Shown piece by piece: positions 41,867 through 58,507 of a DNA stretch of 64,000 nucleotides. The stretch is taken from assembly GCF_004135285.1 (NCBI RefSeq), contig NZ_CP035494.1, positions 62,001 through 126,000 on the forward strand. The letters are read 5' to 3'. The translations under genes were made by a program, and so were the position numbers. Numbering within the stretch: position 1 is the first letter of the stretch; every line of letters starts with the position of its first letter. This DNA is from Microbacterium protaetiae. Its GTDB lineage: Bacteria; Actinomycetota; Actinomycetes; Actinomycetales; Microbacteriaceae. The notes under the pieces are model-generated. The model worked only from the letters and a program-made list of their open reading frames with translations, made no database searches and had not been told where the DNA came from.

Positions 41867-42109
41867 CTATCGCGGCGAGGCGGAACTTGCCACTCTTTTT
41901 CGAGCAACGAACCCCAACGAGAGCAGCACAACACCACCGACAAGGACACCCACGGAAGCCCCGACGCCTACTTGCTGGATCCACGTGTCAATGATCGGCG
42001 AGTCCTGGCTCGTCCCAACGGTCAGTCCAAGCGCAACGATGGCGCCCAGGACAACAAGAACCGCAGCCCACACGAACAATGGTGTTGGTCGCAATGCGCG
42101 TCTGCTCAT
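41867..42109 (-). CDS. Small two-helix membrane protein
   Basis: 80 residues: a basic N-terminus (MSRRALRP), helix ~11-31 (LFVWAAVLVVLGAIVALGL), a short outside loop and helix ~45-67 (GVGASVGVLVGGVVLLSLGF), then a basic tail. GAGGAG lies ten bases before the ATG. Function unknown. Codon use is less GC-biased than in the core genes around it. Confidence 0.6.
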   Translation of the reverse strand: MSRRALRPTPLFVWAAVLVVLGAIVALGLTVGTSQDSPIIDTWIQQVGVGASVGVLVGGVVLLSLGFVARKRVASSASPR

Positions 42110-42335
42110 CAGATTCGAACTCCTCGCTATGAACTTCAGTTCACGGTCGAATTATGATACCGCTCACTACGAACCCCCCGCACGGATATAGCCGATATCG
42201 CACAGCCCCACCTCGTCGCCGGGTTTGCTGCACTGCCATGCCCCTTCGGGCCGCTCTGAAACAGGCTCCGCTTCTGCTGCCTCGCGGCTGCGTGTGGCGG
42301 AACCGATGAGCGTGAAGGCGAAGACCACGGGGCCA

Positions 42336-42929
42336 TCAGCTGCGCGCCGGAGTGAGCCTTTCCTGAGCAGTTGCGGCGCGCTTCGCCGCTCTGCGTGCTT
42401 TCACTGGTGCGGACGTGAAGTACAGCAGCACCGCGATTGCGGTCGTCCCTAGATATCCCGCGACGAAGACGAAGTCGAACCAGATGAGAGCGAGCAGTAG
42501 GCATCCCGGTATCACGGCCGTTGACCAGATCTTCACTCTGCGGCTCCAGAGCGCGGAGGTCCACATCATGATCAAACCCAGGGCCCAGCCGATGAAGTAC
42601 AGGCTCGACCCGACCGCTATCAGCAGGCAGACGGCCCAGACATAGGAAATCGGCTCCCAGCGCGCGAAGAGAGTGATGCGTGATGGCTTGCTGTTCTTCC
42701 CGGAGGTCGTCGGAACTTCCGCAGCGACAGCGAGGGGATCGCCGATCTCGGCGATGATGTCGTGAATGGTGATCGGTTCGCCTCGCTGTTCCGCGTCCGA
42801 TCTGCACTCTACGATGTGGGCCGCGATCTCCGCACGGATGTGCGACGCCGCGTCCGGATCGCGCACGGAGACGGCGCGCTCAACCTCATCAAGGTACGCG
42901 CCTTCAACTGCACTGTCATCGACATCCAT
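42336..42929 (-). CDS. HAAS/DUF1700-like membrane protein paired with PadR regulator
   Basis: 197 residues. The N-terminal ~70 residues are soluble and resemble a HAAS domain: YLDEVERAV, IRAEIAAHIVECRSDAEQRGEP, IIAEIGDPLAVAAEV. Three or four membrane helices follow, and a basic tail. Proteins of this type are usually encoded right after a PadR repressor that may regulate or be held by them. Here the PadR stop is one base before this ATG, so the pair is one operon. Function beyond signalling or envelope stress is unknown. Confidence 0.72.
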   Translation of the reverse strand: MDVDDSAVEGAYLDEVERAVSVRDPDAASHIRAEIAAHIVECRSDAEQRGEPITIHDIIAEIGDPLAVAAEVPTTSGKNSKPSRITLFARWEPISYVWAVCLLIAVGSSLYFIGWALGLIMMWTSALWSRRVKIWSTAVIPGCLLLALIWFDFVFVAGYLGTTAIAVLLYFTSAPVKARRAAKRAATAQERLTPARS

Positions 42930-42930
42930 G

Positions 42931-43302
42931 TCACCGCGACCTTCCCTCTCCTGTTGTCGTCGAGTCGACTTGGGCGCACGGGGAGAAGACTGAAGCGACG
43001 CCGTTCGAGATCATCCTCCAGCCGAGCGTAAAGTCGTCAAGCGCCTCCTGCCCGCGGGTGGTCAGACGGTAATACCGACGCGGTGGGCCCTTCATGGACT
43101 GCTCCCACGTCGTTTCGACCTTGCCGGACTCTCGCAGCCTGCCGAGCACCGGGTACATTGTCCCTGCGCTCGAGATCAGGCCCAGCTCCACGAGCGTCGA
43201 GGCGAGATCGCGGCCATAGACCTCACGGTCCCGCATCAGCGCGAGCGTCACGCCTTCAACCACTCCCTTGCGGAGGCTGTTCAGCGTGCGGTCATCAACC
43301 AT
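42931..43302 (-). CDS. PadR family transcriptional regulator
   Basis: 123 residues: winged HTH of the PadR type with VEGVTLALMRDREVYGRDLASTL, ISSAGTMYPVLGRLRESGKVETTWE and RRYYRLTTRGQEALDDF. Usually a repressor of neighbouring genes and of itself. Two ATGs compete: 43311 and 43302. The second is preferred because TAGCAT lies seven bases upstream and the protein then begins MVDDRTLNS; with the first, AAGG could act as ribosome site. Transcribed with the HAAS-like gene. Confidence 0.85.
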   Translation of the reverse strand: MVDDRTLNSLRKGVVEGVTLALMRDREVYGRDLASTLVELGLISSAGTMYPVLGRLRESGKVETTWEQSMKGPPRRYYRLTTRGQEALDDFTLGWRMISNGVASVFSPCAQVDSTTTGEGRSR

Positions 43303-43480
43303 GTATTGCATGCTACCTTGTAATGGGCTCTACCGCAGTAGCCTCCGATGCTGCTTATTGGGCTTCTCGGGGAGCATTTGGGTGGTTGCCTGGCGAGTTC
43401 ATCGATTACGCTCCTGACCGACCCCGCATCGAGATGCAGTACATGGCTTGTGACGCCACATCCTGCATCTCGACGGCGCA

Positions 43481-43867
43481 TCAACCACCCGAATGGTTGT
43501 CCCCGTAGCTGTTACCCCCGACCCAGAGGCCGACCCACTCAGTCTTCGTGCCGATCAATGGACCAGTGAACGTTCCTGTGTAGCGTGCCCACGCGGCCCC
43601 GTTGCTGTTCTCGGTGGCCTGGCCGATGGCGAGTGTATGAGACGTTTGCGACACGGGACCTCCCCATGACCATGCCCAGTCTCTGACGGCGTTGATCGTG
43701 TCCGGTGCGCTTGTCTTGATCGTGAAATCCGCGTGGAACGACATCGACCAGGCGCCAACCCACGTGCAGATCTTGCAATTGGTGTACTTCATCCCGCCGG
43801 TTACGGCCTTCTTGGTGCAGCTTTCTACGGAGGCCGGGCTAATGACGCCATCTGCGGTCTGAACCAT
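43481..43867 (-). CDS. Hypothetical protein, probably an exported protein that has lost its signal peptide
   Basis: 128 residues from MVQTADGVISPAS: four Cys (ESCTKK, TNCKICTW), many Trp, Ser/Thr and Gly, e.g. SFHADFTIKTS, DWAWSWGGPVSQTSHT, GTFTGPLIGTKTEWVGLWVGGNS. The composition is that of a secreted beta-rich protein, yet the residues ahead of the first Met (VRSLEYPAI) are no signal peptide and lie next to an IS481-type fragment. So the start may have been replaced. No family recognised. Could be expressed as a cytosolic fragment or be a pseudogene. Confidence 0.5.
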   Translation of the reverse strand: MVQTADGVISPASVESCTKKAVTGGMKYTNCKICTWVGAWSMSFHADFTIKTSAPDTINAVRDWAWSWGGPVSQTSHTLAIGQATENSNGAAWARYTGTFTGPLIGTKTEWVGLWVGGNSYGDNHSGG

Positions 43868-43991
43868 GATGGCCGGATACTCGAGACTTCTCACGCCCGG
43901 AGACGGTACCTTGCGAACGTTTGAGCTAGGCGAGGACCTCCTCGGCAGGATATGGGTCACCAGACTCACATGCGTCACCACGGAGGTCCTC

Positions 43992-44072
43992 GTGTCCCAC
44001 GCTGACGCTCCCGTCACCGAGGACGGGCGTCGACGTCTCGCTGCGCTTATCGTCGATCAGGGCTGGTCGAGT
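43992..44072 (+). pseudogene. IS481-type transposase, N-terminal remnant
   Basis: From a GTG the frame reads VSHADAPVTEDGRRRLAALI then VDQGWS. This resembles the first helices of IS481-family transposases, which commonly begin MSHANA.LT..GR.RLA..IV..GW. The similarity ends where the frame runs into the 3' end of the DsbA-like gene. The helix-turn-helix continuation and DDE domain are missing. Just upstream, GAGGACCTCC (43931-43940) and GGAGGTCCTC (43982-43991) form an inverted repeat. Confidence 0.5.
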
Positions 44073-44785
44073 GCGACGTCGACCGCCGCCTGCAACCGGT
44101 CGGCGTTCGTGTCCTGAATGTCGAACACAGTGCCGTCGACGACCAGAACGGGCACTCCCTGCACGACTTGGGCGGTACCGTCGATGGTCGTGCCGAGCCA
44201 GTGGTCGTTGGAGGCCTGCACCCAGTCGCCGAACCTCTGAGTCTCGACGGCGTCGCGGATGTCGGCGGTCACGCCCGCATGCGCTGCCAGGGCGATGATG
44301 TCGTCATCGCCGAGTGCGCCCGCATCTGTGGGCTGGTTCTTCTGCAGCAACGCGTAGAACGCAGGGATGGCCGCGCCCTCCCCCGCATCAGCCACCGCCG
44401 CAATGGCACCTGCGGCACGCGTCGACCAATCAGTGGCGTCGCCGTGCTTCTCGCTCACGAAGTTGAGCGGGTGGATCGTCAGCGTGACATCACCGCTCGC
44501 GACCCACGAGGCGATGAGGTCGCCGGTCTCGGCCTCAAGCATCGCGCAGTACGGGCACGACAGGTCGGTCCACAGTGCAATCTCGACGGGCCCGTCGCCC
44601 GCGGTGATCACGTGGTCGCCGAGGGATGCCGGCACTGCGGTGCCCGCCCCCTGCGCACTGGGTGCGGGAGCCGAGTCGCTGGGTGCCGACGCCGGGGAGT
44701 CTGTCACTGCGGAACAGCCGGTCAGAGCGAGGGCGCCGGCGATGATCGGTGCGAGCAGGAGTGCGGGAACGCGGGTCTTGGACAT
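44057..44785 (-). CDS. DsbA-family thioredoxin-fold lipoprotein
   Basis: 242 residues. Lipobox LALTGC near residue 22-27, a Ser/Ala/Pro linker, then a thioredoxin-4 (DsbA/DsbG-like) domain with the active site in TDLSCPYCAMLE (CPYC) and the cis-Pro loop QGVPVLVV near the C-terminus. Expected to be membrane-anchored outside the cell and to form or isomerise disulfides in exported proteins. The second ATG (MSKTRVP) is chosen because AAGGA precedes it at about six bases. A TGGTCAGACCA-type palindrome lies just upstream. Disulfide-rich products nearby would be plausible clients. Confidence 0.88.
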   Translation of the reverse strand: MSKTRVPALLLAPIIAGALALTGCSAVTDSPASAPSDSAPAPSAQGAGTAVPASLGDHVITAGDGPVEIALWTDLSCPYCAMLEAETGDLIASWVASGDVTLTIHPLNFVSEKHGDATDWSTRAAGAIAAVADAGEGAAIPAFYALLQKNQPTDAGALGDDDIIALAAHAGVTADIRDAVETQRFGDWVQASNDHWLGTTIDGTAQVVQGVPVLVVDGTVFDIQDTNADRLQAAVDVALDQP

Positions 44786-44796
44786 GGCCATCCTTA

Positions 44797-44809
44797 GTGG
44801 TCTGACCAC
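44797..44809. promoter_or_regulatory. GTGGTC-T-GACCAC palindrome, FCD-type GntR operator candidate
   Basis: A perfect 13-bp palindrome directly upstream of the DsbA-like gene. TGGTCnGACCA is the core bound by several FCD-family GntR regulators (FadR, LldR types). No such regulator gene is in this window. Confidence 0.55.
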
Positions 44810-44963
44810 AAATCTACGCGGGACGGTTGCGAAGGCTCTCCGAAACCACCGTGACAAAGCAGAGAGTCGCCCCAACCAGTCCGGAACAACGTACGTGCCA
44901 CCAACCCGATCAGTAGCTGGCCACGAGGATGGCGGCGGCGAGCGCGAATGAACCGGTGACGAT

Positions 44964-45139
44964 CTCCAAGCGGACAATTTCGGGCACCAGTATCTGGTCG
45001 TGCAGCGTCCTGGCGGACGGGGCGCGGGTCTTGCTGGTCCGGTCCCCGCGGTGAGGAACCCACTGTCTATCGCACTGATCGTGCGGCAGATGGCCTCGAC
45101 CCCGAAACGATCCCGGAACATGTCAACGAACCGGATCAT
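44964..45139 (-). pseudogene. IS3-family transposase (OrfB) N-terminal remnant, frameshifted
   Basis: ATG then MIRFVDMFRDRFGVEAICRT matches the usual start of IS3-family OrfB (MIRFIDEHRDRFGVEPICR). After about 35 residues the similarity continues in another frame as TSKTRAPSARTLHDQILVPE followed by IVRLE, the region before the Y(S/G)VYG(A/V)RK motif, which is absent. So the gene is both frameshifted and truncated, with no DDE catalytic domain. Shows past transposition into this region. Confidence 0.75.
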
Positions 45140-45541
45140 CTCGTCGAAGGAAATTCTCCTAATACCGAGCGTTACGAATGGACACCAAGATTCTGGCTCG
45201 ACGGCAGATGGTCTAAGGCCCGTCTGCCGTTGAGCGCAGCGCCACCCGCATACCTTTCGCCGTCGCCGAGCGGCTCGAGTTGACGGTGGACCCCGCGAAG
45301 CTCAACGCGGAATACACCGGACTTGCCGGTTGAACCGACGAGGCGGGCGAGCCTTGGGCTTCGTTGGCCAGACCAATACGCTGCAACCGTGGCATCACCG
45401 TCGAGACTTCTCTCCAGATCCGCTGTCGTGTTTCACGCCTTGGCTACACCCGGCGGGAGAACGTTCCTGAGTAAGGCTCACGCAAGTATCACTCGTCCGC
45501 AGCTCACGGCTAGTCCCCCTGGCAGCAAGCCCAGGTCGACC
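45140..45541. other. No gene recognised; degraded sequence upstream of the LysM-like lipoprotein
   Basis: 402 bp next to the IS3 remnant. A short plus-strand stretch around 45236-45334 (RIPFAVAERLELTVDPAKL) reads like coding sequence but has no start context. No clear promoter or terminator. Confidence 0.4.
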
Positions 45542-45994
45542 ATGCGGACTACGTGGATGGCTGGCGCAGCATTCGCCGCGACCGCACTAGCCACAATTGC
45601 TCTCGGCGGCTGCACGGCGACACCAAGCGCGCAGGACGTCACACCCCCGGGAGCGACGTCTCCCGGGTCTTCTCAGGCCGCCCCAGCTAGTCAGGCGAGC
45701 CCAGCGGAGACCGAAACGACATGTGCGTCCAAGACTGGCGTCTTGGACCGTGGTCCGCGTGCGCACGCAGAAGGCAAAGTCACCGTTGATGAGAGTGGAA
45801 ACCCTATCGCCTACACGGTGGCAGCGGGGGATGCATGGGAGGCAATCAATTACCGGTTCTGCTCGAACTTCATCCAGGGCCTGAATAGTGACTGGCTCTA
45901 CTGCGGTGGGCGCACACATGTGATTCAGCCCGGAGACAAGCTCACGCTTGACCCGACCGAGTATCCAGAACCTAAGTGCAAGCGTGGGAGCTAA
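45542..45994 (+). CDS. LysM-like lipoprotein
   Basis: 150 residues. Type II signal peptide with lipobox ALGGC (Cys ~24), a Pro/Ser/Ala-rich linker, then a domain with YTVAAGDAWEAINYRFC and HVIQPGDKLTLDP. These are the beginning and end of a LysM-type carbohydrate-binding repeat, with extra Cys residues. Probably a cell-surface lipoprotein that touches peptidoglycan. There is no strong ribosome site (only AGG in CCCAGGTCGACC), and earlier in-frame ATGs lack signal-peptide features. Confidence 0.68.
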   Translation: MRTTWMAGAAFAATALATIALGGCTATPSAQDVTPPGATSPGSSQAAPASQASPAETETTCASKTGVLDRGPRAHAEGKVTVDESGNPIAYTVAAGDAWEAINYRFCSNFIQGLNSDWLYCGGRTHVIQPGDKLTLDPTEYPEPKCKRGS

Positions 45995-46395
45995 CGACGC
46001 GCTACCGCTACCCGGAACGCGAGGAGCCGGACTGCTCTTTGGGGCACCAACGAAGGAGTCTGCCGCGATGGCATGGACCACAGTACACTCTTCCGCGATA
46101 TCGCAACAGGACACTGCCAGCCGCCAACCGCCGCACGCTCGACTACCTGACAATCTGGGCAACGCGGCACTGCGGCTATGCCCCTCCGTCATCCTGCACG
46201 AAAGCCAGCGTAGATGATCGAACGGACGCTCAGGCCCAGGCTAACGGTGACGCGCGCGCACGATCTATCCCCTCCGGCGACCGCGTGCCAAGTCCGACGC
46301 GACCAGCTATCCGCGGACGCGACCCCGTGGACCACCACCGGTCGCAAGACGCCACCGGAGGGGCAAGGACACGCACGTTCGCGTACGCTCCCCCT
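45995..46395. other. No gene recognised; leader region of the histidine kinase gene
   Basis: 401 bp. Several frames are open for short stretches, but none has a start context or a familiar sequence. At its end TACGCT (46384-46389) lies six bases before the histidine kinase ATG, a leaderless promoter. Confidence 0.45.
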
Positions 46396-47754
46396 ATGTA
46401 TCGTCGTGAAGATAGTGCGTCGGAGGTGAATACGGCTGACCAGATACGGGCGTCTGAAGCCGCCGCCCGCCTCACTCCTTCTCATACCCTCGAGACTGGA
46501 GTGGAAGCACTGCAAGCCTTTCCTTCGGCATTCTTGCGCTCGCGTAAGGCGGCGCTGCTGTTCGCTCTCACCGTCTTCGTTGCGACCCTTCTCCAGGTCC
46601 TCGCCGTCCCCGTCACCGCGCTCGTGGAAGGAAATCGAGAGTGGGGACTGATCTTCCCGGAGCCGGTGGTGATTCTGCTGCTCGTCGTGGGATGCATGCT
46701 GCAGTCGGCCCCCCTCATGCTGGCAGACCGCGCGCCGCGGTGGACCGTGGTCCTCGCGACGTTGACATACCTGGCTCTTGGGGTCGGGCTCGCGGTCCCT
46801 TCGTGGCTGACCGGCATGTATCTCGTCATCGCACTGGCCCTCTTCCTCCTCGGCACGCGTCTCAACCCCACCATTTCGATGGTCTGGGCGCTCTGCGTCA
46901 TTGCGGTGACGATGGCAGTCATCTTTGTTTGGCTCTTACTCATCGGCACGAGCTACAGCACAGCGACGGGATTCGTATTGGGCGAGAGCGCTCGATTCGC
47001 TGCGCCCGCGGCGGGGGCGACGGCACTGGGCATCTGGTGGGGCGCGCAGACCCGTCGCGTGACACGAGCACATGAAGAAGCCGCGCTGGCGAAAGAAGAG
47101 CACGCCCAAAGAGTGCGCGACGCTCAGCATGAGGAAAGAGCGAGAATCGCACGCGAACTCCACGACGTGGCTGGCCAGCATCTTGCGGGCTTGATCACTC
47201 TTGCGGACGCAGCACTCACCGTCGCGGCAGACAGTCCCGATACCGCACTTGAACTTGTCGGCGAGGTTCGGAGTGAGGGCCGGTTCGCGGCCGCCAGTCT
47301 CGCAGGGGCATTGGCAGATCTACAGGACGCCGGGGCGAGAAAGACGGACGCCACCGCAACCGATATCCGCCGCGCGCCAGAACTCGCAGCGTACTGGCGA
47401 AGAATCGGAATGAATGTCGAGATGTCAATCGACGGAGAACTACAAGAGCTCCCAGCAGTGGTATCGAGCACAGCGTATCGAGCGCTCCAGGAAGCGCTCA
47501 CGAACGTCGCAAAGCACTCCCCCGGCTCGTCGGCGCATGTGAAGATACTTGCCAACCGCGAACGACTCGACGTCGTCATCACGAACAACCTGCCAGCCAC
47601 CACGGTCAAGGAAATACCGGGCATCAGCTTGGGATGGGGACTCGCCGGGATGCGCGAGCGCGTGGAACTGCTTCAAGGCACCCTCACGGCAGGAGCGAAC
47701 GCATCTCGCCAATGGCAACTCGCCATATCGATCCCGATGTCCACCCTCCTCTAA
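46396..47754 (+). CDS. Sensor histidine kinase, NarL/DesK type
   Basis: 452 residues. A soluble N-terminus of ~50 residues and about six membrane helices (~55-215) without a large outside domain, then a HisKA_3 dimerisation helix with the phosphorylated His in ARELHDVAGQHL, and an HATPase domain with EALTNVAKHS and GWGLAGMRERVELLQG. Intramembrane sensing kinases of this design often respond to membrane-active compounds. The partner regulator follows after 14 bases. Start: ATG (MYRRED) at six bases from TACGCT; the frame continues 140 codons upstream through DNA with no protein-like features. Confidence 0.9.
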   Translation: MYRREDSASEVNTADQIRASEAAARLTPSHTLETGVEALQAFPSAFLRSRKAALLFALTVFVATLLQVLAVPVTALVEGNREWGLIFPEPVVILLLVVGCMLQSAPLMLADRAPRWTVVLATLTYLALGVGLAVPSWLTGMYLVIALALFLLGTRLNPTISMVWALCVIAVTMAVIFVWLLLIGTSYSTATGFVLGESARFAAPAAGATALGIWWGAQTRRVTRAHEEAALAKEEHAQRVRDAQHEERARIARELHDVAGQHLAGLITLADAALTVAADSPDTALELVGEVRSEGRFAAASLAGALADLQDAGARKTDATATDIRRAPELAAYWRRIGMNVEMSIDGELQELPAVVSSTAYRALQEALTNVAKHSPGSSAHVKILANRERLDVVITNNLPATTVKEIPGISLGWGLAGMRERVELLQGTLTAGANASRQWQLAISIPMSTLL

Positions 47755-47768
47755 CGAGAAAGACCGCT

Positions 47769-48437
47769 GTGAACACGAAGAGAATCCGCGTCTTAATCGC
47801 TGACGACAACCGCGTCGTGCGCCGCGGTCTCCGCCTGCAACTGGAGGCGGTGCCGGATATCGTCGTCATCGGCGAGGTGGGCAACGGAGCCGACGCTGTC
47901 ACCGTGGCCCGAAACGAAAAGGCAGACGTGGTCCTTATGGATCTCCAAATGCCCGGAATGAGCGGCATCGAGGCCACACGCCAGCTGGCCGCAGACTCAA
48001 CACGTCATTCTGCGGTGATCGTCATGACAAGCTTCGCGTTCGATGAGTATGTGCGTGATGCGCTCGATGCGGGAGCCGTCGGGTATCTCCTTAAGAGCCA
48101 CGACTCGGCACATCTCCTCGACGCAATCTACGCCGCGTCGCAGCGGCAAGGGGTGGTGTCCACGCGAGTCACAGCGCCCATGTTGAGGGAGTTCGTTCGA
48201 CGTCGTCGAGTACCGGTCTCGGAAGCGGCCGAACTTCTGACAGCAGCAGAGCGAAGGGTCGTGGCTGTCCTCTCCAGCGGCACGACGAGCAACGAAGACA
48301 TCGCGGCGTTCCTAAACGTGTCCGTACACACGGTGAGGTCCCAGCTCCAGTCGGCACTCAAGAAGGTCGGGCTCGCCGACCGGACCCAGCTCGCCCTCTG
48401 GGCTGTACGGAACAACGTTGACGACACCGCAACATAA
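47769..48437 (+). CDS. Response regulator, NarL/FixJ family (LuxR-type HTH)
   Basis: 222 residues. Receiver domain (RIRVLIADDNRVVRRGL; phospho-Asp in DVVLMDLQMPGMSG; switch Thr/Ser and Lys in YLLKSHDS) followed by a GerE/LuxR HTH (LTAAERRVVAVLSSGTTSNEDIAAFLNVSVHTVRSQLQSALKKVGL). GTG start with GAGAAAGA upstream. It should act with the preceding kinase. The likely first target is the broken small-peptide gene and membrane protein immediately downstream (inferred from position only). Confidence 0.9.
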   Translation: MNTKRIRVLIADDNRVVRRGLRLQLEAVPDIVVIGEVGNGADAVTVARNEKADVVLMDLQMPGMSGIEATRQLAADSTRHSAVIVMTSFAFDEYVRDALDAGAVGYLLKSHDSAHLLDAIYAASQRQGVVSTRVTAPMLREFVRRRRVPVSEAAELLTAAERRVVAVLSSGTTSNEDIAAFLNVSVHTVRSQLQSALKKVGLADRTQLALWAVRNNVDDTAT

Positions 48438-48442
48438 TTCAA

Positions 48443-48648
48443 ATGATTGAAACCACCAGCCTTATTTTTGGGCATCCTGCAGCGCCCTCGGTGGCCCCAT
48501 AGCCGGCGTTGCCTGTGGCGTCAGCTCCGCCTACGCGATTGACTATGCGAACACCGCTCTCAACAATGGGAAGTGTGTGGGTGTCCGAGCGCTCATCTAC
48601 GACCCGCTGCCCACCACCCATCTGGTTCAGGAGAAATGCAGGAAGTGA
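48443..48648 (+). pseudogene. Small secreted-peptide gene broken by a one-base frameshift
   Basis: ATG at 48443 reads MIETTSLIF and is then closed by a TAG. One extra T in the run at 48465-48469 would join it to the other frame. That gives a 68-residue product: a hydrophobic leader (TTSLIFWASCSALGG, then PIAGVACGVSSAYA), then IDYANTALNNGKCVGVRALI and YDPLPTTHLVQEKCRK. The restored product has an exported-peptide layout with an AxA-like site and four Cys. It lies between a two-component system and a membrane protein. No Shine-Dalgarno is seen at the ATG. Sequencing error is possible. Confidence 0.55.
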
Positions 48649-48652
48649 TCCC

Positions 48653-49072
48653 ATGCAAGGAGTGAGTGCACTTTCAGAAACCGGGCCGCTTCTTCCCCGT
48701 GTGGGTGCGCCGCTTGTTGCGACCACGGCTCTCATGTTTGGAATCACGTCCTCCGCAGCAATCTGGGGAAGCAGTGGGATACCAACGGCGCTTTTTGTCA
48801 TCTGGATAGGCCTCATCGTCACGTTGTTCATGGCGATGCCGGCGTGGAACAAGCGCAAGAAGAGTGCTACCGACCGTACTGAGAAGCGCTGGTCGACAAC
48901 GGTGACGCTTGTGAGCATCCTCGCTCCGTTAGTGCTGGTGGTGCTTGCACTCACGCTCACAGAGGCCAGTCGATGGCTCTATCTGGCGGCGGCGAGCGCG
49001 AGCTTGGTCATGTTCGCCGTTGCACTTGTCCTTGCCCGACGTGCAACACATCAGAGTGGGGCCCCGAACTGA
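48653..49072 (+). CDS. Four-helix membrane protein (possible immunity partner of the upstream peptide)
   Basis: 139 residues with four hydrophobic helices (~18-38, ~44-62, ~83-102, ~106-126) and a basic loop (WNKRKKSATDRTEKRW). The ribosome site AGGAAG is inside the last codons of the peptide remnant, so the two are transcribed together. A strong terminator follows 16 bases after the stop. No family recognised. Immunity or sensing is only a guess from size and position. Confidence 0.65.
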   Translation: MQGVSALSETGPLLPRVGAPLVATTALMFGITSSAAIWGSSGIPTALFVIWIGLIVTLFMAMPAWNKRKKSATDRTEKRWSTTVTLVSILAPLVLVVLALTLTEASRWLYLAAASASLVMFAVALVLARRATHQSGAPN

Positions 49073-49088
49073 TCTCGGCCAGAAGGTG

Positions 49089-49124
49089 AACGGCCCGCTC
49101 CCGTTGTAACGGGAGCGGGCCGTT
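49089..49124 (+). terminator. Strong terminator-like hairpin
   Basis: AACGGCCCGCTCCCG and CGGGAGCGGGCCGTT form a perfect 15-bp stem with a 6-base loop (TTGTAA), just after the four-helix membrane protein gene. No long U-run follows. Confidence 0.85.
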
Positions 49125-49294
49125 GGCGGTTGTCATGAGAGATCGACGAGTTCTCGGCCGCAACCGACCAAGGAACCGCCTTCGAGCGCCCTCTGCCGTC
49201 TGGCGACGAATTGATGTAGCCGGGTTCATTGAAGCAGTCGTCCCGCCACGTATCCGCAGTACGCAGGAGGTCAGGCAAGGACACGGTCGCACCG

Positions 49295-49650
49295 TCATGC
49301 GCACATCGCTTCGTTGACGTCGCCACCGTCGACAAAGGACCGGAAATCGGCGACCACGCAGAGCCCACGGTAGGCATGCCCACACCGGAGCTCATCGTTC
49401 GTGAATCGACCTGTCCACGCCGTTCAGACAGGTAGCCGCCTTCGATTCCGTGATGGCGGCCGCGCCAGCCGCCACCACCTCCAGCAGGAGGTCGCCGAGT
49501 ACGTCGGAACGACCGGGTGCGAGCAGCTCAAGAAGCTCTATCGCGGTCCAGCCGCCGTCGGGTGTCGGGCTCGTGGAGGTCCGGGAACACGACACAACTG
49601 AGGATCATCTCCGTTGTCACGGCCACAAGTTCTTCCGAAGTCAGTTCCAT
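49295..49650 (-). pseudogene. Decayed minus-strand coding region, frames shifted
   Basis: Protein-like stretches lie in three frames. MELTSEELVAVTTEMILSCV begins at 49650; a second frame at about 49392-49560 reads DGGWTAIELLELLAPGRSDV then LGDLLLEVVAAGAAAITESK; a third at 49295-49423 reads FTNDELRCGHAYRGLCVVAD then FRSFVDGG before a stop. Joined, they look like one or two former genes interrupted by frameshifts. Family not recognised. The middle part could still be a small separate ORF. Confidence 0.35.
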
Positions 49651-49758
49651 GCGAACCCCATGCGCGGTCGCCAGTCGCCGGCCGGACCAGACTCGGAGAG
49701 TGCGGACTGCCGCCATCGCCTTTCCTGCCTGTATCGAACGAATCGGTGACGCGAAGGC

Positions 49759-50178
49759 TCAGGTACTTTCAGACTCCCATGCCATCAACCGCAGGCTGTG
49801 GGTCCGCACAATCTGCAGATCCTGGTCGCCGTCGAGATATCCGGTGGCGACATCCGGCTCGTCCAGGGACCCCTGTACGGTTTGTGGCGCGAGGAAATCG
49901 ACGAGGATTGCCGGGGCACCGTACGCAGGGAACTCAGCATTACGTAGGAAGGTCTTCCACTGTACGAGGTCCGCGATGTGTAGGTTTGGGACGCCTTGGA
50001 ACGACTTCAACGCGGTCGTCAGATGCTTCGCATAGTTGCCGTTGGCAACGTAGACCTGATACCTCTGGAGTCGCTTGTCGCGCTCACGCTGAAACATCGA
50101 ATAGAAGTCATCCAGGCCGCCGGTGCTCAATGTCTGGTCGCCCTCGACCGCGCCCTCGTCGTCATCACGGTCAGTCAC
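49759..50178 (-). CDS. Hypothetical protein
   Basis: 139 residues, acidic start (MTDRDDDEGAVEGD), then a soluble alpha/beta-looking body: LDDFYSMFQRERDKRLQRYQ, VYVANGNYAKHLTTALKSF, QWKTFLRNAEFPAYGAPAIL. No signal peptide or membrane segment. GTG start overlaps the stop of a 37-codon ORF upstream. Not recognised. Codon use is less GC-rich than in core genes. Confidence 0.55.
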   Translation of the reverse strand: MTDRDDDEGAVEGDQTLSTGGLDDFYSMFQRERDKRLQRYQVYVANGNYAKHLTTALKSFQGVPNLHIADLVQWKTFLRNAEFPAYGAPAILVDFLAPQTVQGSLDEPDVATGYLDGDQDLQIVRTHSLRLMAWESEST

Positions 50179-50288
50179 GCTCGCTCACTCTCCATCGCGT
50201 GGATCGCCGCCTCCAACGCCTGCAACCAACCGCGATTGCCGTCACGGCGTTCCATCGACCATGGCTCCCGTCGGTCGAGTCCCGTCAT
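50175..50288 (-). CDS. Very short ORF coupled to the following hypothetical gene
   Basis: 37 residues: MTGLDRREPWSMERRDGNRG then WLQALEAAIHAMESERA. Its TGA overlaps the GTG of the 139-residue gene (GTGA). The C-terminal half is a good amphipathic helix. It may be a leader peptide for translational coupling, a small antitoxin-like protein, or chance. No ribosome site was seen. Confidence 0.35.
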   Translation of the reverse strand: MTGLDRREPWSMERRDGNRGWLQALEAAIHAMESERA

Positions 50289-50697
50289 CTAAATGAGTGA
50301 ACTGTCGTCGATTCGTATTGCGTGATCGTCGTTCACGCGCTTGCGTCGGCGGCCCAATCGCTCGACGACACCATATATGGGCGGTCGATGCCAGAAGTGG
50401 CCGTCCTGCACCCTAGGGCCCGCTCGAACGATCCGTTGCAGAACCGCACAGAATCAGGACCGCAGCATGCGTCGCCTGCGGCGTCATCGAAGTCATTTTC
50501 CGCTATCGCAGCCGACACCGGAACCGTAGAAGTCGTGAACCGGACCGCCGCCACCAGGCACTCCAGTCGCGCAAAAACGCGGAAGTTCATGTCTGACGCC
50601 GCGCATCACGTCGTTGACCTCCAGGCGTGCACGTGGAATGTTTCGGGCTAGGTCGAGACCATCGGCCTAGGTTCAACGCACGTCCAGAGGGGTCAAG
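50289..50697. other. No gene recognised; upstream region of the five-gene export operon
   Basis: 409 bp with only weak open frames on both strands. TAGGTT at 50668-50673 could be the -10 of the operon promoter, and GAGGGG at about 50687-50692 is the ribosome site of the first gene. Confidence 0.4.
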
Positions 50698-51036
50698 ATG
50701 ACGTCCAAAGCTGCAAAGAAGAGCACGGTTTTCGGAGCAACTGCTGCGCTTGCAATGACATTGCTCGCAAGCTTCGCGGTGGTGACACCTGCACATGCTG
50801 TGTGCTCGGGTGCGTACTTTTCCGTCAACACGTCCGCACAGGCAACTGTGAAGGTTTCCTCGCTCTGCACGGGAAGCTCGAAGGTGCGAGCACGCAAGGA
50901 CTGGTACTACACCGACAGCACCAACTCCAGTGTTGGGACAAGCGTGGGCCCCTGGATCGGTGATCCTGGGCTGGCCTCGATCGTGTATCTTCCGAGTGGA
51001 CGATTCCACAAGGTGAACATCATCGAGTCGAACTGA
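50698..51036 (+). CDS. Small secreted protein, first gene of the export cassette
   Basis: 112 residues. Clear Sec signal peptide: basic start (MTSKAAKKS), hydrophobic core (AALAMTLLASFAVV) and TPAHA cleavage site around residue 34. The mature ~78 residues hold two Cys (VCSGAYFSV and SLCTGSS) and are rich in Ser, Thr, Val, Tyr and Trp (KDWYYTDSTNSSVGTSVGPW). It resembles small secreted bacteriocin-like or envelope proteins, but not lactococcin 972 on inspection. GAGGGG ribosome site five bases upstream. Four genes with overlapping or close starts follow, so it is the probable substrate or client of the ABC complex. Confidence 0.75.
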   Translation: MTSKAAKKSTVFGATAALAMTLLASFAVVTPAHAVCSGAYFSVNTSAQATVKVSSLCTGSSKVRARKDWYYTDSTNSSVGTSVGPWIGDPGLASIVYLPSGRFHKVNIIESN

Positions 51037-51053
51037 CGTTGCGCGGAGATGAA

Positions 51054-51665
51054 GTGCTAAGGCGGCAGATTCTGACGGCTGGCGGCATACTGTCACTGGC
51101 GATTGGGCTAGCGGCATGCTCCTCGAACGAAGCGTCCGCGGCGGGTCCCTACGCCCCCGAGTTTGAGCAGGCCCGCCAACAGGCTGTGACCGACCTGCAG
51201 CGTGGGGTGTTGAGCGATGGCAAGATCACCGACGCAGAGTTTCGTGAAGTACGTCAGCGCTACATCGACTGCCTCACCGACGCTGGCATCCACGCCACAG
51301 CTCGTCCAGACGGCGGTTACGACTTCGATACTCAACTTGTCGGAGCGCAAGCCGATGCCGAACGGCAATGCGCCGAGGAGACAACGTATGTGATCGAACC
51401 CCTCTACTACGCGATCAGAACGAACCCGCAGAAGGAGGATTTCAGTGCCCTCGTCGCAGAGTGCCTGCGTACGGAAGAGGTTGTCGACAGCACGTTCACG
51501 AAAGACGATTGGGACCAGTTCGTGAACGCGTTCTCAGCTGCACAGGCTGGCGAGTCGAACGGCAATGACATACCACTCGCGTCGGAGCTACCGAAGCTTC
51601 CCGGCGGCGTCGCAATGGATGATCCGAGAGTGCAAGAGTGCAGCACCAACCCGCTGGGTCGGTGA
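51054..51665 (+). CDS. Lipoprotein with Cys-rich extracellular domain
   Basis: 203 residues. Signal peptide II: MLRRQILTAGGILSLAIGLA then AACSS, with lipobox LAAC. The mature domain has four more Cys (YIDCLTDAGI, ERQCAEE, AECLRTEE, VQECSTNP) that could make two disulfides. A TTG five codons earlier is also possible; GTG was chosen because GGAG lies five bases before it. The stop overlaps the next gene's GTG. I have no family name; proteins with a CLTDAGI-type motif accompany similar ABC cassettes in actinobacteria (from general memory, not checked). Confidence 0.75.
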   Translation: MLRRQILTAGGILSLAIGLAACSSNEASAAGPYAPEFEQARQQAVTDLQRGVLSDGKITDAEFREVRQRYIDCLTDAGIHATARPDGGYDFDTQLVGAQADAERQCAEETTYVIEPLYYAIRTNPQKEDFSALVAECLRTEEVVDSTFTKDDWDQFVNAFSAAQAGESNGNDIPLASELPKLPGGVAMDDPRVQECSTNPLGR

Positions 51666-52681
51666 GACCCTGGTTACGATGGGCCGTGTCGGTCGGCGCC
51701 CTGGTGCTCACCGGCGGTGTGTTGCTCGGCGCCTTGGTGCTACCGCCACTGGTGCCGCCATCGGTACGCGCCGTGGACGTGCCACGTACTGTCCCGGTGA
51801 CAGCGAGGTCGTTCACCGACGCGCATACTATCTACGCTGTGCCGACACTCTCAGACAAGGTAACAGTCGGCCTCACGGGTGGAAATGGCATGGTGACCGC
51901 TTCTCAGTGCAAGCCCGGCACGGAGATCCGCACCGGCGACCACATTCTGAGTGTTGACGGGATAGGCCGCATCGCACTTGTCACTGGCGTACCGCTGTGG
52001 CGCGATCTCTCCTCCGGCAGCACAGGAGCGGACGTCAAGGGTCTGCAGAAGGCTCTGATCAAAGCGGGATACGAGCTGGGGGTCACCCGGAATTACGATG
52101 CTGACACGATCGCCGCGGTCGAGGCTATGCAGAGACGAGCGTCGGTCGCGGCCGACGGGCGCATCACACTTGATCGCGTCCAATGGATACCGAGCGGAAT
52201 GGCTCCGGTCACCTCCTGCGAGGCGCCTGTGGGCACCGAGATAACGCACGGTCAGCCGTTGCTTGTCGCGGGCGAGACCCTTACCGGGTTGACGTTTCCC
52301 GATATAGCTACGGACCTCGCTCACCACCGATACGTTGCGGTGTCGGGAGCTGCGGTGGTCCACATTCCTGAGGGGCGTAAGGTCACCGACGCCACGTTTC
52401 TGAGCGCGGTGGCATCGTCTGACGCCTTTGCGCAGTGGAAGAAGGATCCCACTCGCGGCATTGCGCTCGGAGTGAAGCTTGAAGAGCCGATCTCGGCCAT
52501 CGGGGTCCCCCCGTCCGCCGTGCTGGTCACCGGCTCGACACGCGGATGCGTGATATCTGCCCACAAGGCGGTGCCCGTGCAGATCCTCGCGAGCGAGTTG
52601 GGCACCGTCTTTGTCGTACCTCAGCAGTCCGTCGAAGCAGTCATCATTCCTGCTGCTAACGCGAGCACGTCATGCGAATAA
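51662..52681 (+). CDS. Membrane-anchored adaptor with peptidoglycan-binding domain (MacA/HlyD-like role)
   Basis: 339 residues. One N-terminal membrane helix (WAVSVGALVLTGGVLLGALV), then an exported region. A PG_binding_1 domain (~residues 112-170: SGSTGADVKGLQKALIKAGY, then YDADTIAAVEAMQRRASVAADG) sits between two halves of a beta-rich adaptor-like body, with G(T/D)HILSVDG and GQPLLVAGE lipoyl-like hairpins. It probably links the ABC permease to the cell wall. GTG start overlaps the upstream TGA. Ends in ASTSCE. Confidence 0.82.
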   Translation: MRPWLRWAVSVGALVLTGGVLLGALVLPPLVPPSVRAVDVPRTVPVTARSFTDAHTIYAVPTLSDKVTVGLTGGNGMVTASQCKPGTEIRTGDHILSVDGIGRIALVTGVPLWRDLSSGSTGADVKGLQKALIKAGYELGVTRNYDADTIAAVEAMQRRASVAADGRITLDRVQWIPSGMAPVTSCEAPVGTEITHGQPLLVAGETLTGLTFPDIATDLAHHRYVAVSGAAVVHIPEGRKVTDATFLSAVASSDAFAQWKKDPTRGIALGVKLEEPISAIGVPPSAVLVTGSTRGCVISAHKAVPVQILASELGTVFVVPQQSVEAVIIPAANASTSCE

Positions 52682-53301
52682 GAGTCGATGACATCTCCTT
52701 CGCGCACCCTGGAGGACCCACCCTCTACACGGGGCTCAGTTTCACAGCCCACGAAGGATCGCTCGTCGCACTCACAGGCCCATCCGGCTCGGGGAAATCG
52801 ACCTTGCTCTCCCTTCTGGGCGGCTGGCTCAGGCCGACTCACGGCACCATCGAACGAACTGCCATTCACGACGTGGCGCTCGTTCCGCAGAACCCGCATG
52901 GCGTGTCGGAGCGGACCGCCCTTGATCATGTATGCCTCCCACTCGTGGCGCGCGGGGCGGGGCGGGGCGATGCAACCGTCGTCGCCCGGCGTCAGCTGAT
53001 GCGGCTCAACCTCGAAGAGGTTGCGGCACGCCCATACCGGATGCTGTCGGGCGGGGAGCGTCAAAGGATGCTACTGGCTCGCGCTCTCGCCACAGAACCC
53101 GACATGCTACTCATAGACGAGCCGACTGCTCAATTGGATCCCAGGGCGGCCGCCGATGTGTGTGAGGCCCTGCGGTCACTTCAGGAGGCCGCGGCCATCG
53201 TTTTCGTCGCCACTCATGACCCTCGTGTTATCGCCGCGTGCTCGACAACGATCGATTTGCTCACCGTGCAACCTCCCGCCGACGATCATGGTGACTCTTG
53301 A
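52672..53301 (+). CDS. ABC transporter ATP-binding protein (MacB/LolD type)
   Basis: 209 residues. Walker A GPSGSGKST at 36-44, Q-loop region LVPQNPHG, signature LSGGERQRMLLARAL, Walker B MLLIDEPTAQLD and the His switch in VATHDPR. Size and motifs fit the MacB/LolD/FtsE group of ATPases that power exporters or mechanotransmission complexes without moving substrate through the membrane. Overlaps the adaptor gene by 10 bp and the permease gene by 4 bp. Confidence 0.92.
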   Translation: MRIRVDDISFAHPGGPTLYTGLSFTAHEGSLVALTGPSGSGKSTLLSLLGGWLRPTHGTIERTAIHDVALVPQNPHGVSERTALDHVCLPLVARGAGRGDATVVARRQLMRLNLEEVAARPYRMLSGGERQRMLLARALATEPDMLLIDEPTAQLDPRAAADVCEALRSLQEAAAIVFVATHDPRVIAACSTTIDLLTVQPPADDHGDS

Positions 53302-54368
53302 AGATCAGAGAAGTGTGGCGTGAGGCAGCTCGCAACTTCGGTGCCGGGGCAAGCTATGGGGTCATCTCTCTCGTCACATTCCTCGCCATCGCCCTATGCC
53401 TGGGGATCGTCGCCACACGAGGGGTTGTGGGTGTGGTCACGGAGGCCAGCGCATTTCGTGAGTCAGGGGCATCCGTGTTCCGTCTCGACTCTCCTGGCAA
53501 CGTCGATGGAAACGCCTGCGACGCACTCGCTCGCGTCGACGGCGTGGACGCCGCGGGAGCGACGCGCGCCGGCGACACTCTCCGGTTTGCCCTGCTCCCC
53601 GACCGCCCCACACCGTACTTCGATGCATCACTCGGCATGGCGCACCTTCTCGACGTCGATCCAGCCTCTCCGAACGCGGGTCTGATCGTAGATTCCACCC
53701 TGGCCGCCTCGCTCGGACTCAGCCACATCCCCGGAACTACGTTTCTGATCGACGGGAGTCGGCCGAGCGCCGTTGCAGGGACGTATGACCACCCCGACGA
53801 CGGTCGCGATTCGACGCTCAGTGGTGCGGCGATCGGGCTGGCTGTCGGCAGTGAGCCCTTCGATTCATGTTGGGTGCGGTTCTGGCCGCCCTCGGACAAC
53901 CCGCTGGAGCTGCTGGGAACTGTCACCATAGACGTCGGCGGTTCAAACGGAGCGACACAATGGAACCCAACTCTGGGACGTACTCTCGACCCCAACGCTG
54001 TCTTCCATTCGCTGCCGCTCGTTGTCCTCACTAGCCTGGCTGCTATTGCGGCCGCCGCACTCGCGTTTGTCGGGCTGCGCCTCCGTCGTTTGGAACTCGC
54101 ATCGGCCCTCCACGTCGGAGTGAGCCACTCCGCCTTGGCCGGCATCTCGCTGGCCGAGTGTGCGATCTGGCTCATCCCCGCATCACTGTTCGCCGCGACA
54201 ACACTTGCCTTCTGTGCCGCCTGGCACAACCCCGATCCTCCGCTGGCCGCATGGTTGGCCGGGGCGCGAGTTGTGGCCGCAGCCATGAGCGCCTGGATAC
54301 TCACGATCGGGCTCACTGCTGCAATGACGAATGAGGCTCATCTCGTCAGATACTTTCAGCAGCGATGA
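53298..54368 (+). CDS. ABC transporter permease, MacB/FtsX-like topology
   Basis: 356 residues. One N-terminal helix (YGVISLVTFLAIALCLGIVA), an outside domain of ~190 residues with two Cys (NACDALARV, DSCWVRFW) and three C-terminal helices (LPLVVLTSLAAIAAAALAFV, CAIWLIPASLFAATTLAF, VVAAAMSAWILTIGL). This 1+3 topology is that of MacB/FtsX type VII ABC proteins. The TTG start overlaps the ATPase stop (TTGA). Last gene of the cassette; a hairpin terminator follows. Confidence 0.82.
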   Translation: MKIREVWREAARNFGAGASYGVISLVTFLAIALCLGIVATRGVVGVVTEASAFRESGASVFRLDSPGNVDGNACDALARVDGVDAAGATRAGDTLRFALLPDRPTPYFDASLGMAHLLDVDPASPNAGLIVDSTLAASLGLSHIPGTTFLIDGSRPSAVAGTYDHPDDGRDSTLSGAAIGLAVGSEPFDSCWVRFWPPSDNPLELLGTVTIDVGGSNGATQWNPTLGRTLDPNAVFHSLPLVVLTSLAAIAAAALAFVGLRLRRLELASALHVGVSHSALAGISLAECAIWLIPASLFAATTLAFCAAWHNPDPPLAAWLAGARVVAAAMSAWILTIGLTAAMTNEAHLVRYFQQR

Positions 54369-54406
54369 GGACACCGCGCCGACGAACGGACGCCCGCATG
54401 TTGAGA

Positions 54407-54440
54407 GGCCCGGAACTGCAAAGTCTCGCCGTTCCGGGCC
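54407..54440 (+). terminator. Terminator-like hairpin after the export cassette
   Basis: GGCCCGGAAC and GTTCCGGGCC make a perfect 10-bp stem with a 14-base loop, 38 bases after the permease stop. It also separates the cassette from the convergent nrdF gene. Confidence 0.75.
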
Positions 54441-54479
54441 CCGCGTCTGACCCCTTCGAGGTGAAATCAACCCAATTTC

Positions 54480-57672
<3,193 letters not shown>

Positions 57673-57691
<19 letters not shown>

Positions 57692-58116
57692 CGTTCCAAT
57701 CCGTCGCTCACGCGGGCGACGTCCTCGGGCGTGCCGAACAATTCGAGCCGATACAAGTGCGGCACGTTGCACTTGCGGCTGATGATCTCTCCGGCCAGGC
57801 AGTACGCCTGACCGAAGTTCGTGTTTCCGGCGGAGATGACTCCGCGGATCCACTTGCGGTTGTCCTCGTCGTTGAGGAACTTGATGACTTGCTTGGGAAC
57901 AGAGCCCTTCTCGACTCCGCGTCCCTGTCCGCCGCCGTAGGTCGGGGTGACGAGCACGAACGGCTCGTCGACCTTCAAGGGCTCTTCGGTGCTGTGCGGC
58001 CCCATGTGCAACGGAATGCGCCGGGCAGGCATCCCCAGCTTCTCAACGAAACGCGCCGTGTTTCCCGAGATGCTGGAGAAGTAGACGAGAAGCGGCGCAG
58101 CGACCGCGGTGGGCAT
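57673..58116 (-). CDS. nrdI: Flavodoxin-like NrdI, ribonucleotide reductase activator
   Basis: 147 residues. The FMN-binding loop [17 protein letters not shown], then [17 protein letters not shown] and C..G motifs of NrdI. It supplies the oxidant for assembling the NrdF Mn-tyrosyl radical. The start MPTAVAAP is one base after the nrdH stop; 22 upstream codons are open but inside nrdH. Confidence 0.96.
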
Positions 58117-58117
58117 A

Positions 58118-58351
58118 TCAGGCCAGGCGAGCGGCGAGTTCGTCGATCTTGTCGGGGCGGAAGCCCGACCAGTGCCCCTCATCGGTGACGACGACGGGTG
58201 CCTGCAGGTAGCCGAGAGCCTTCACCTGCTCGAGCGCCGTCGGGTCCTCGGTGAGGTCGTGCACTTCGTAGTCGATGCCCTTCGCATCCAGCGCGCGGTA
58301 GGTCGCGTTGCACTGCACGCAAGAAGGCTTCGTGTAGACCGTGATCGCCAT
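58118..58351 (-). CDS. nrdH: Glutaredoxin-like NrdH redoxin
   Basis: 77 residues: [20 protein letters not shown] with the CVQC redox pair, then YLQAPVVV (cis-Pro) and [10 protein letters not shown], the NrdH C-terminal signature. It reduces NrdE after each turnover using thioredoxin reductase. First gene of nrdHIEF. Confidence 0.97.
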
Positions 58352-58412
58352 TTCGACCGTGTCTCCCCTCGTCATTCGATCCGTTTTCCCGGTGGTCCCC
58401 CGCCGGTCCCCC

Positions 58413-58476
58413 AATACTACATATGGGTACCGACACTGGGAAGCACCACAAGGGATAGTAGTTACATCTGTGTAGT
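58413..58476. promoter_or_regulatory. Candidate NrdR boxes in the nrdHIEF promoter
   Basis: AATACTACATATGGG (58413-58427) and, inverted, ACTACACAGATGTAA (58476-58462) share ACTACAnA..., similar to actinobacterial NrdR boxes. They flank about 34 bp of promoter DNA. NrdR represses nrd genes when dATP is high. Box spacing is larger than in E. coli, so the assignment is moderate. Confidence 0.55.
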
Positions 58477-58507
58477 TTTCCACCGCCCTCCCCATGTACA
58501 ACACAGG

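Follow-up and report, generated by a model that had tools for sequence, protein, structure and literature searches.

A candidate bacteriocin-and-immunity operon with a predicted wall-anchored ABC module in Microbacterium protaetiae

Introduction

Lactococcin 972 (Lcn972) and its relatives are encoded by loci such as lcn972-orf2-orf3 of Lactococcus lactis, scbABC of streptococcin B and the mediterrocin genes, in which a Sec-type precursor of ~110 amino acids (aa) with an all-beta mature part is followed by ATP-binding cassette (ABC) genes specifying a TIGR03608 ATPase and a seven-helix DUF1430 protein, the latter described in the accessible part of PMC12345188. The available portion of one report describes the ABC genes of Lcn972, orf2-orf3, as immunity genes (PMC4055356), while that of another calls the B and C genes of streptococcin B-type loci experimentally unverified and supports Sec-dependent secretion of the Lcn972-like pneumococcal streptococcin B, which was secreted with and without ComAB (PMC11796350). 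Here we analyze a five-gene cassette at positions 50698-54368 of a 64,000-nucleotide stretch of M. protaetiae contig NZ_CP035494.1 (the whole stretch is hereafter the window). Like those loci, it opens with a small Sec-type, predicted all-beta protein and has ABC genes downstream, but a four-helix permease, a peptidoglycan-binding adaptor and a lipoprotein stand in place of the seven-helix protein. We propose that it is probably a self-contained bacteriocin-and-immunity operon.

Two further systems invite comparison. In nisin producers the lipoprotein NisI binds nisin and NisFEG expels it, as stated in the accessible part of PMC8538875. The lipoprotein and ABC set of the cassette fits the NisI/NisFEG plan, which is also that of SpaI/SpaFEG and in which lipoprotein and transporter act on an extracellular bacteriocin; the likeness drawn here is one of plan. 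To our knowledge, NisFEG has no counterpart of the wall-anchored adaptor. With MacAB-TolC and related pumps the cassette shares a permease that weakly resembles MacB/FtsX and an adaptor built of a lipoyl domain and additional beta domains. It differs from them in carrying a PG_binding_1 domain at the site of the alpha-hairpin, in having separate ATPase and permease genes, and in that no outer-membrane channel is expected in this Gram-positive lineage. MacB-type pumps act on extracytoplasmic substrates.

Lcn972-like clusters with ABC and membrane or hypothetical genes are reported, in the accessible parts of the respective papers, from Brevibacterium (PMC5719810) and Curtobacterium (PMC10456417). 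By their description, these clusters are probably the same module as the one studied here; the accessible text of both accounts names no lipoprotein, peptidoglycan-binding adaptor or other cargo families, and in the open-licence papers covered by our search terms we found no description of any of the three with Lcn972-like loci.

A recurrent five-gene cassette

The list of open reading frames (ORFs) and their translations places five ORFs in one direction at 50698-54368, where a first-pass annotation of the window had put them.

50698..51036, plus strand: gene 1, small Sec-type secreted protein, proposed bacteriocin ("cargo"); 112 aa, mature part ~78 aa with two cysteines
50698..50799, plus strand: signal peptide of gene 1, residues 1-34, cleaved between AHA and VC (inspection and simple hydropathy rules)
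51054..51665, plus strand: gene 2, lipoprotein with lipobox LAAC, proposed cargo-specific immunity or receptor protein (alignment A2, cysteine counts, neighborhoods)
51662..52681, plus strand: gene 3, membrane-anchored adaptor of the MacA/MexA/CusB type (PF01471 match and structure model)
52022..52168, plus strand: PG_binding_1 domain inserted within the adaptor lipoyl domain (PF01471, E 3.1e-9; model alignments)
52672..53301, plus strand: gene 4, ABC ATPase (PF00005, E 5.2e-27)
53298..54368, plus strand: gene 5, probable MacB/FtsX-type (type VII) permease, family unnamed (alignment A3, cysteines, weak PDB matches, relative P0048)
54407..54440, plus strand: perfect 10-bp-stem hairpin 3' of the operon, without a T run (sequence)

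Genes 1 and 2 are spaced by 17 bp, and the following junctions overlap by 4 bp (genes 2/3, 51662-51665), 10 bp (3/4, 52672-52681) and 4 bp (4/5, 53298-53301). Gene 2 encodes 203 aa from a GTG start, a TTG at 51039 being a possible alternative; the start of gene 3 was taken as GTG 51662, in a GTGA overlap with gene 2, and 51638 is also open. The ORFs, their cysteine counts, the PG_binding_1 domain, the ATPase, the 1+3-helix permease and the overlaps were all borne out as first annotated. The terminator hairpin proposed in the same annotation proved to have a perfect stem, but it lacks a T run and sits between convergent genes, with ~110 bp separating the operon from the 3' end of nrdF and the nrd genes on the opposite strand.

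This arrangement is more than chance, as dozens of genomes carry the gene set and locus L151, in another genus of the same family, has all five genes in the same order. That order is also present at L051 (Micrococcales bacterium 72-143), there with two lipoproteins. The permeases of these two loci are 67% (L151) and 54% (L051) identical to that of the window, compared with 38% or less for the remaining 33 sequences of alignment A3, own-genus ones included; further metagenomic relatives exceed 50% identity. The cassette has thus probably moved between genera. With the own genome counted, the permease profile A3 matched 57/396, 24/247 and, phylum-wide, 4/396 genomes (E <= 1e-10), and the lipoprotein profile A2 matched 49/396 genomes of the order and 31/295 of the genus (E <= 1e-3). 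No permease match was obtained in the plasmid collection.

Neighborhoods were annotated on six-frame ORFs with iterated profiles, and permeases were accepted at 140 bits or more, a stricter line than E <= 1e-10. This yielded 82 distinct places, 9 of which had less than 3.5 kb upstream and were dropped, leaving 73 in 59 genomes. According to the first-pass annotation, homologues of the ATPase, permease and adaptor lacking any conserved small secreted or Cys-rich lipoprotein neighbor would detach genes 1 and 2 from the system. This was not the pattern observed: the adaptor was present at 73/73 places and a lipoprotein of the family lay within 6 kb of the permease at 71/73 (not at L031 and L197), many of the places having first been located via the lipoprotein. 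It was positioned upstream on the same strand at 60 places, on the opposite strand at 8 and elsewhere at 3. A cargo-like small secreted ORF occurred within 700 bp of the lipoprotein or adaptor at 38/73 places, a count that is not blind because the rule was tuned on cargos already known; the same rule returned none in 308,942 bp of flanks more than 2.5 kb from module genes. Nineteen full-length loci fetched after a permease match (L171-L174, L176-L178, L182, L183, L186, L188, L190-L197) gave a lipoprotein in 18/19 and a cargo-like ORF in 7/19. For the 11 of these without a prior lipoprotein match at the place, two of them from genomes outside the lipoprotein searches, the figures were 10/11 and 4/11.

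Small secreted proteins encoded beside the module

The gene 1 product begins, on inspection, with a K-rich start, a hydrophobic core and the AHA-VC cleavage site, and rule-based assessment gives it the Sec signal and the ~60-90-residue mature size of the lactococcin 972 family. Pfam and NCBIfam returned nothing beyond chance, matches to Hisat_C and flagellin being taken as such, and there was no match to PF09683 or TIGR01653, with a profile-profile probability of 0.1%. Because membership was tested by sequence with this result, we do not file gene 1 in the lactococcin 972 family; by analogy, its product may nonetheless work like a lactococcin 972-type bacteriocin. The predicted model (AF2 [AlphaFold2] predicted local distance difference test, pLDDT, 92.3) is all-beta, with six strands predicted in the mature protein, and its best PDB alignment is 2LGN, lactococcin 972 itself, while Foldseek with gene 1 alone gave no clear match. 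The initial judgment that the peptide does not look like lactococcin 972 therefore holds for its sequence and is doubtful for its fold.

Homologues of gene 1 are P0002, P0003 and those at L151, L051, L152, L163 and L164. A search of 5.8 billion clustered proteins recovered, besides gene 1 itself, only P0002 and P0003, which is an undercount, since that search needs shared words and missed the L151 and L051 relatives. P0002 and P0003 lie on contigs of 6037 and 7775 bases, presumably shared with the lipoprotein relatives P0011 and P0009 and the permease relatives P0035 and P0031, whose contigs are equally long.

We then collected by eye 44 small proteins (set A4), including P0002, P0003 and the lipoprotein-only loci L140, L147 and L163, and passed over other listed ORFs as spurious. 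Eleven of the 44 matched PF09683 Lactococcin_972 and 11/44 matched TIGR01653 (E <= 0.01); ten PF09683 matches rerun singly scored from 30.8 to 54.7 bits, all above the Pfam gathering score of 22. Clustering of the mature parts separated 11 lcn972-type, 8 window-type, 8 "C", 5 "D" and 4 "E" proteins, one pair and six singletons. Profile comparison found no link between window-type and lcn972-type cargos, and a weak one (32%) between window-type and "C" cargos. In other genomes, the slot ahead of this module is filled by PF09683 members. A PF09683 search of 198 genus genomes detected seven genes, every one in loci already found, with the lipoprotein adjoining 7/7 and the whole module 6/7 (L134, L135, L137 twice, L139 and L144; not L140). 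The resemblance to lactococcin 972 export loci suggested in the first-pass annotation is therefore stronger than claimed there. At L163 (1477-1794, on a short contig), L140 (7275-7649) and L147 (6596-6940), a small secreted gene accompanies a lipoprotein with no adaptor-ATPase-permease set in the stretch examined.

A MacB-like module with a predicted wall anchor

Gene 3 encodes a membrane-anchored protein with a PF01471 PG_binding_1 domain scoring above the family cut-off. In its structure model, biotinyl/lipoyl folds align over residues 72-211 (64-70 aligned) and peptidoglycan-binding folds at about residues 115-190. The model has the split lipoyl domain, further beta domains and N-terminal anchor of the MacA/MexA/CusB adaptor superfamily, and it has no coiled-coil alpha-hairpin for an outer-membrane channel, the PG_binding_1 fold being at that position. 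BesA, which likewise lacks the alpha-hairpin, was among the structures matched. Two adaptor cysteines, C303 and C345 (numbering from 51641), are kept in 57/57 sequences, and two more in 43/57. A weak MtrD match (E 0.0038, below cut-off) was taken as chance. The model hence supports gene 3 as a MacA-type adaptor in which a wall-binding domain would replace the outer-membrane link, as had been anticipated for a MacB-type system at this locus.

The gene 4 product is an ABC_tran (PF00005) ATPase whose best NCBIfam match is AztA, then FtsE, LolD, TIGR03608 and MacB among others, all below cut-offs; against TIGR03608, the ATPase family of the lactococcin 972 loci, it scored 105.7 bits with a cut-off of 254.85. 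A search of the PADLOC models for an anti-phage system was likewise unproductive, with gene 4 alone matching at E <= 1e-3, to ATPase-type models, among the 25 of 34 matches listed.

Gene 5 is probably a MacB/FtsX-type (type VII) permease. A simple hydropathy scan revealed four hydrophobic helices, of which the first is set apart from the other three by ~200 residues, that is, the 1+3 topology of type VII permeases and not the seven helices of DUF1430 proteins. No Pfam family matched the protein at E values up to 1, and its one NCBIfam match was a chance one below cut-off. Profile A3 returned four PDB matches up to E 10, none significant alone: MacB (0.058 and 0.74), a putative ABC integral membrane protein (0.16) and FtsX (7.6). 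Its relative P0048 carries a precomputed PF12704 assignment, which we take to be MacB_PCD, and another relative is named FtsX-like. Cys74 and Cys191, located between helices 1 and 2, are kept in 36/36 aligned sequences.

Lipoproteins, cargo class and competing readings

The gene 2 lipoprotein has four cysteines besides that of its lipobox, all kept in 14/14 sequences of alignment A2; it gave no Pfam or NCBIfam match beyond chance and only chance matches in the PDB. At 20/73 permease places there are at least two lipoproteins, six modules (L035, L115, L119, L125, L152 and L182) have two to five ORFs of the family each, and genome G506 has seven matches, which suggests stacks of immunity specificities. 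L132 and L141 exemplify lipoproteins without the module in the stretch examined, as expected of orphan immunity genes.

On trees of the same 29 loci, cargo class changed 5 times along the lipoprotein, 7 along the permease and 8 along the adaptor, where the least possible is 4, the shuffled mean about 17, and only rows with all three proteins were used. Trees of 34, 29 and 29 rows for lipoprotein, adaptor and permease gave 6, 8 and 7 changes; L134, with two cargos at one module, was omitted from the latter two trees. The lipoprotein tracks cargo class at least as well as the adaptor and permease do, judging by the raw counts.

No cargo-like ORF adjoins the module at 35 of the 73 places, and gene 1 is for this reason less tightly bound to it than gene 2. 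These places weigh against a bacteriocin operon. They also count against an export or maturation machine, in which the complex would release the Sec-exported small protein through the wall and the lipoprotein would be a chaperone or disulfide helper instead of an immunity protein. Such a machine ranks next after the favored reading but is an unlikely alternative, one that draws on the general knowledge that MacAB/LolCDE-type pumps act from the outer face on extracytoplasmic substrates, on the clustering of cargo class on the permease and adaptor trees too, far below the shuffled mean, and on conserved cysteines in cargo, lipoprotein, adaptor and permease. The mature part is devoid of cysteines in 17/36 collected cargos outside the window family, so that disulfide help is not generally needed. 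The first-pass annotation had cast the small protein or the lipoprotein as substrate, toxin or immunity factor; a small secreted protein as cargo still stands, but its export by the complex is unsupported, because gene 1 has its own Sec signal, streptococcin B, secreted with or without ComAB, fits Sec (PMC11796350) and immunity is the function given for the ABC genes of Lcn972 (PMC4055356), as far as the accessible parts of these sources go.

An OmpR-type two-component pair adjoins 9/73 places, 7 of them without adjacent cargo, which suits a resistance role and suits it better than export. Together with the many places devoid of cargo and with a gene for a small secreted protein beyond the kinase at L033 (2156-2446) and L150 (4818-5105), this favors a module for envelope stress or antibiotic resistance, comparable to BceAB or other MacB-type systems, that would sense or remove wall-active compounds in general, with the small proteins as signals or decoys. 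We nevertheless consider this reading quite unlikely, given that a bacteriocin family is matched by eleven small proteins of the collection and that cargo class tracks the lipoprotein tree, which speaks for specificity. The L033 and L150 small proteins (P0018 and P0019) share a GTQG-SxAxHG stretch with the L127 cargo and could be a further cargo family or a kinase ligand.

Surface decoration, with the module loading a structural or adhesive, wall-bound beta protein onto peptidoglycan, is very improbable: the proteins are small and secreted, all-beta in the one modeled, and the adaptor has a peptidoglycan-binding domain, but inspection detected no LPxTG-like C-terminal end in gene 1, PF09683 members occupy the same slot, and many cargo families tracking the lipoprotein fit conflict better than structure.

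Genomic surroundings

A DsbA/Thioredoxin_4-like lipoprotein is encoded at 44057-44785 of the window. Its proposed role, from 6 kb away, as oxidant of the cassette cysteines was discarded: among the scanned neighborhoods (window, L031-L052 and L111-L198) a homologue at E <= 1e-4 occurred only in the window. A NarL-type histidine kinase and response regulator (HisKA_3, GerE) map ~2.3 kb upstream of the operon (46396-48437) and differ from the OmpR-type pairs at other modules.

The stretch from the cassette end through the nrd genes spans 54368-58351, and at L126 (552-6482), in another family, a related module and two-component genes are found just beyond nrdHIEF (gene names assigned by eye). According to the accessible part of PMC5719810, a Brevibacterium conjugative element integrates at the 3' end of a gene of this kind (nrdF). 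A mobile element ending at nrdF was considered here and rejected, as no convincing attachment repeat was detected: exact plus-strand matches of 54440-54600 elsewhere in the window reached 12 bp (17967, 21727) or, within nrd genes, 12-15 bp (55282, 56832), those between 30 kb and the operon were of 11 bp only (37493, 44099), and a repeat search of the window uncovered nothing clearer among the 20 of 42 families listed. The G+C content of 42000-58500, nrd genes included, is mostly 59-66% per 500-base step (66-67% at 44-45 kb), compared with an average of 69% across 30-44 kb and with 68-73% from 59 kb onward.

Discussion

We favor, as the probable reading, a self-contained bacteriocin-and-immunity operon. 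Gene content, its conservation, the varied cargo families beside one module and the presence of lactococcin 972 family members in the cargo slot speak for it, together with an adaptor architecture and a gene 1 fold taken from predicted models. Beyond these, we infer antibacterial activity, a target, an immunity role and a direction of transport. Once exported by Sec, the gene 1 protein would fold extracellularly into a small beta-sandwich, pinned by a disulfide and similar to that of lactococcin 972. Acting at the surface of related bacteria, perhaps on lipid II, the target of Lcn972, it would stop their growth. The gene 2 lipoprotein would retain its cognate small protein on the external side of the membrane, in the way that NisI binds nisin. 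ATPase and permease would form a type VII (MacB-like) machine that, instead of transferring the small protein across the membrane, dislodges it from the membrane or its target and drives it outward through the wall. The adaptor would tie this machine to peptidoglycan, its binding domain being at the site of the hairpin that in Gram-negative bacteria meets the outer-membrane channel.

More tentatively, and with somewhat less than even confidence, we propose that lipoprotein, adaptor and type VII ABC pump make up a single wall-anchored immunity machine, exchangeable among five or more families of small Sec-exported bacteriocins that are unrelated in sequence but share the lactococcin 972 fold, with the lipoprotein deciding which cargo is tolerated; Lcn972 would then be one branch of a large, mostly unseen actinobacterial class.

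If these proposals are true, the module would provide a simple genomic handle for Sec-exported bacteriocin families unnamed by Pfam and NCBIfam, and self-protection of lactococcin 972-type producers would become testable with a defined four-gene set. It would also mean that a MacA-type adaptor, in a cell without an outer membrane, attaches to the wall.

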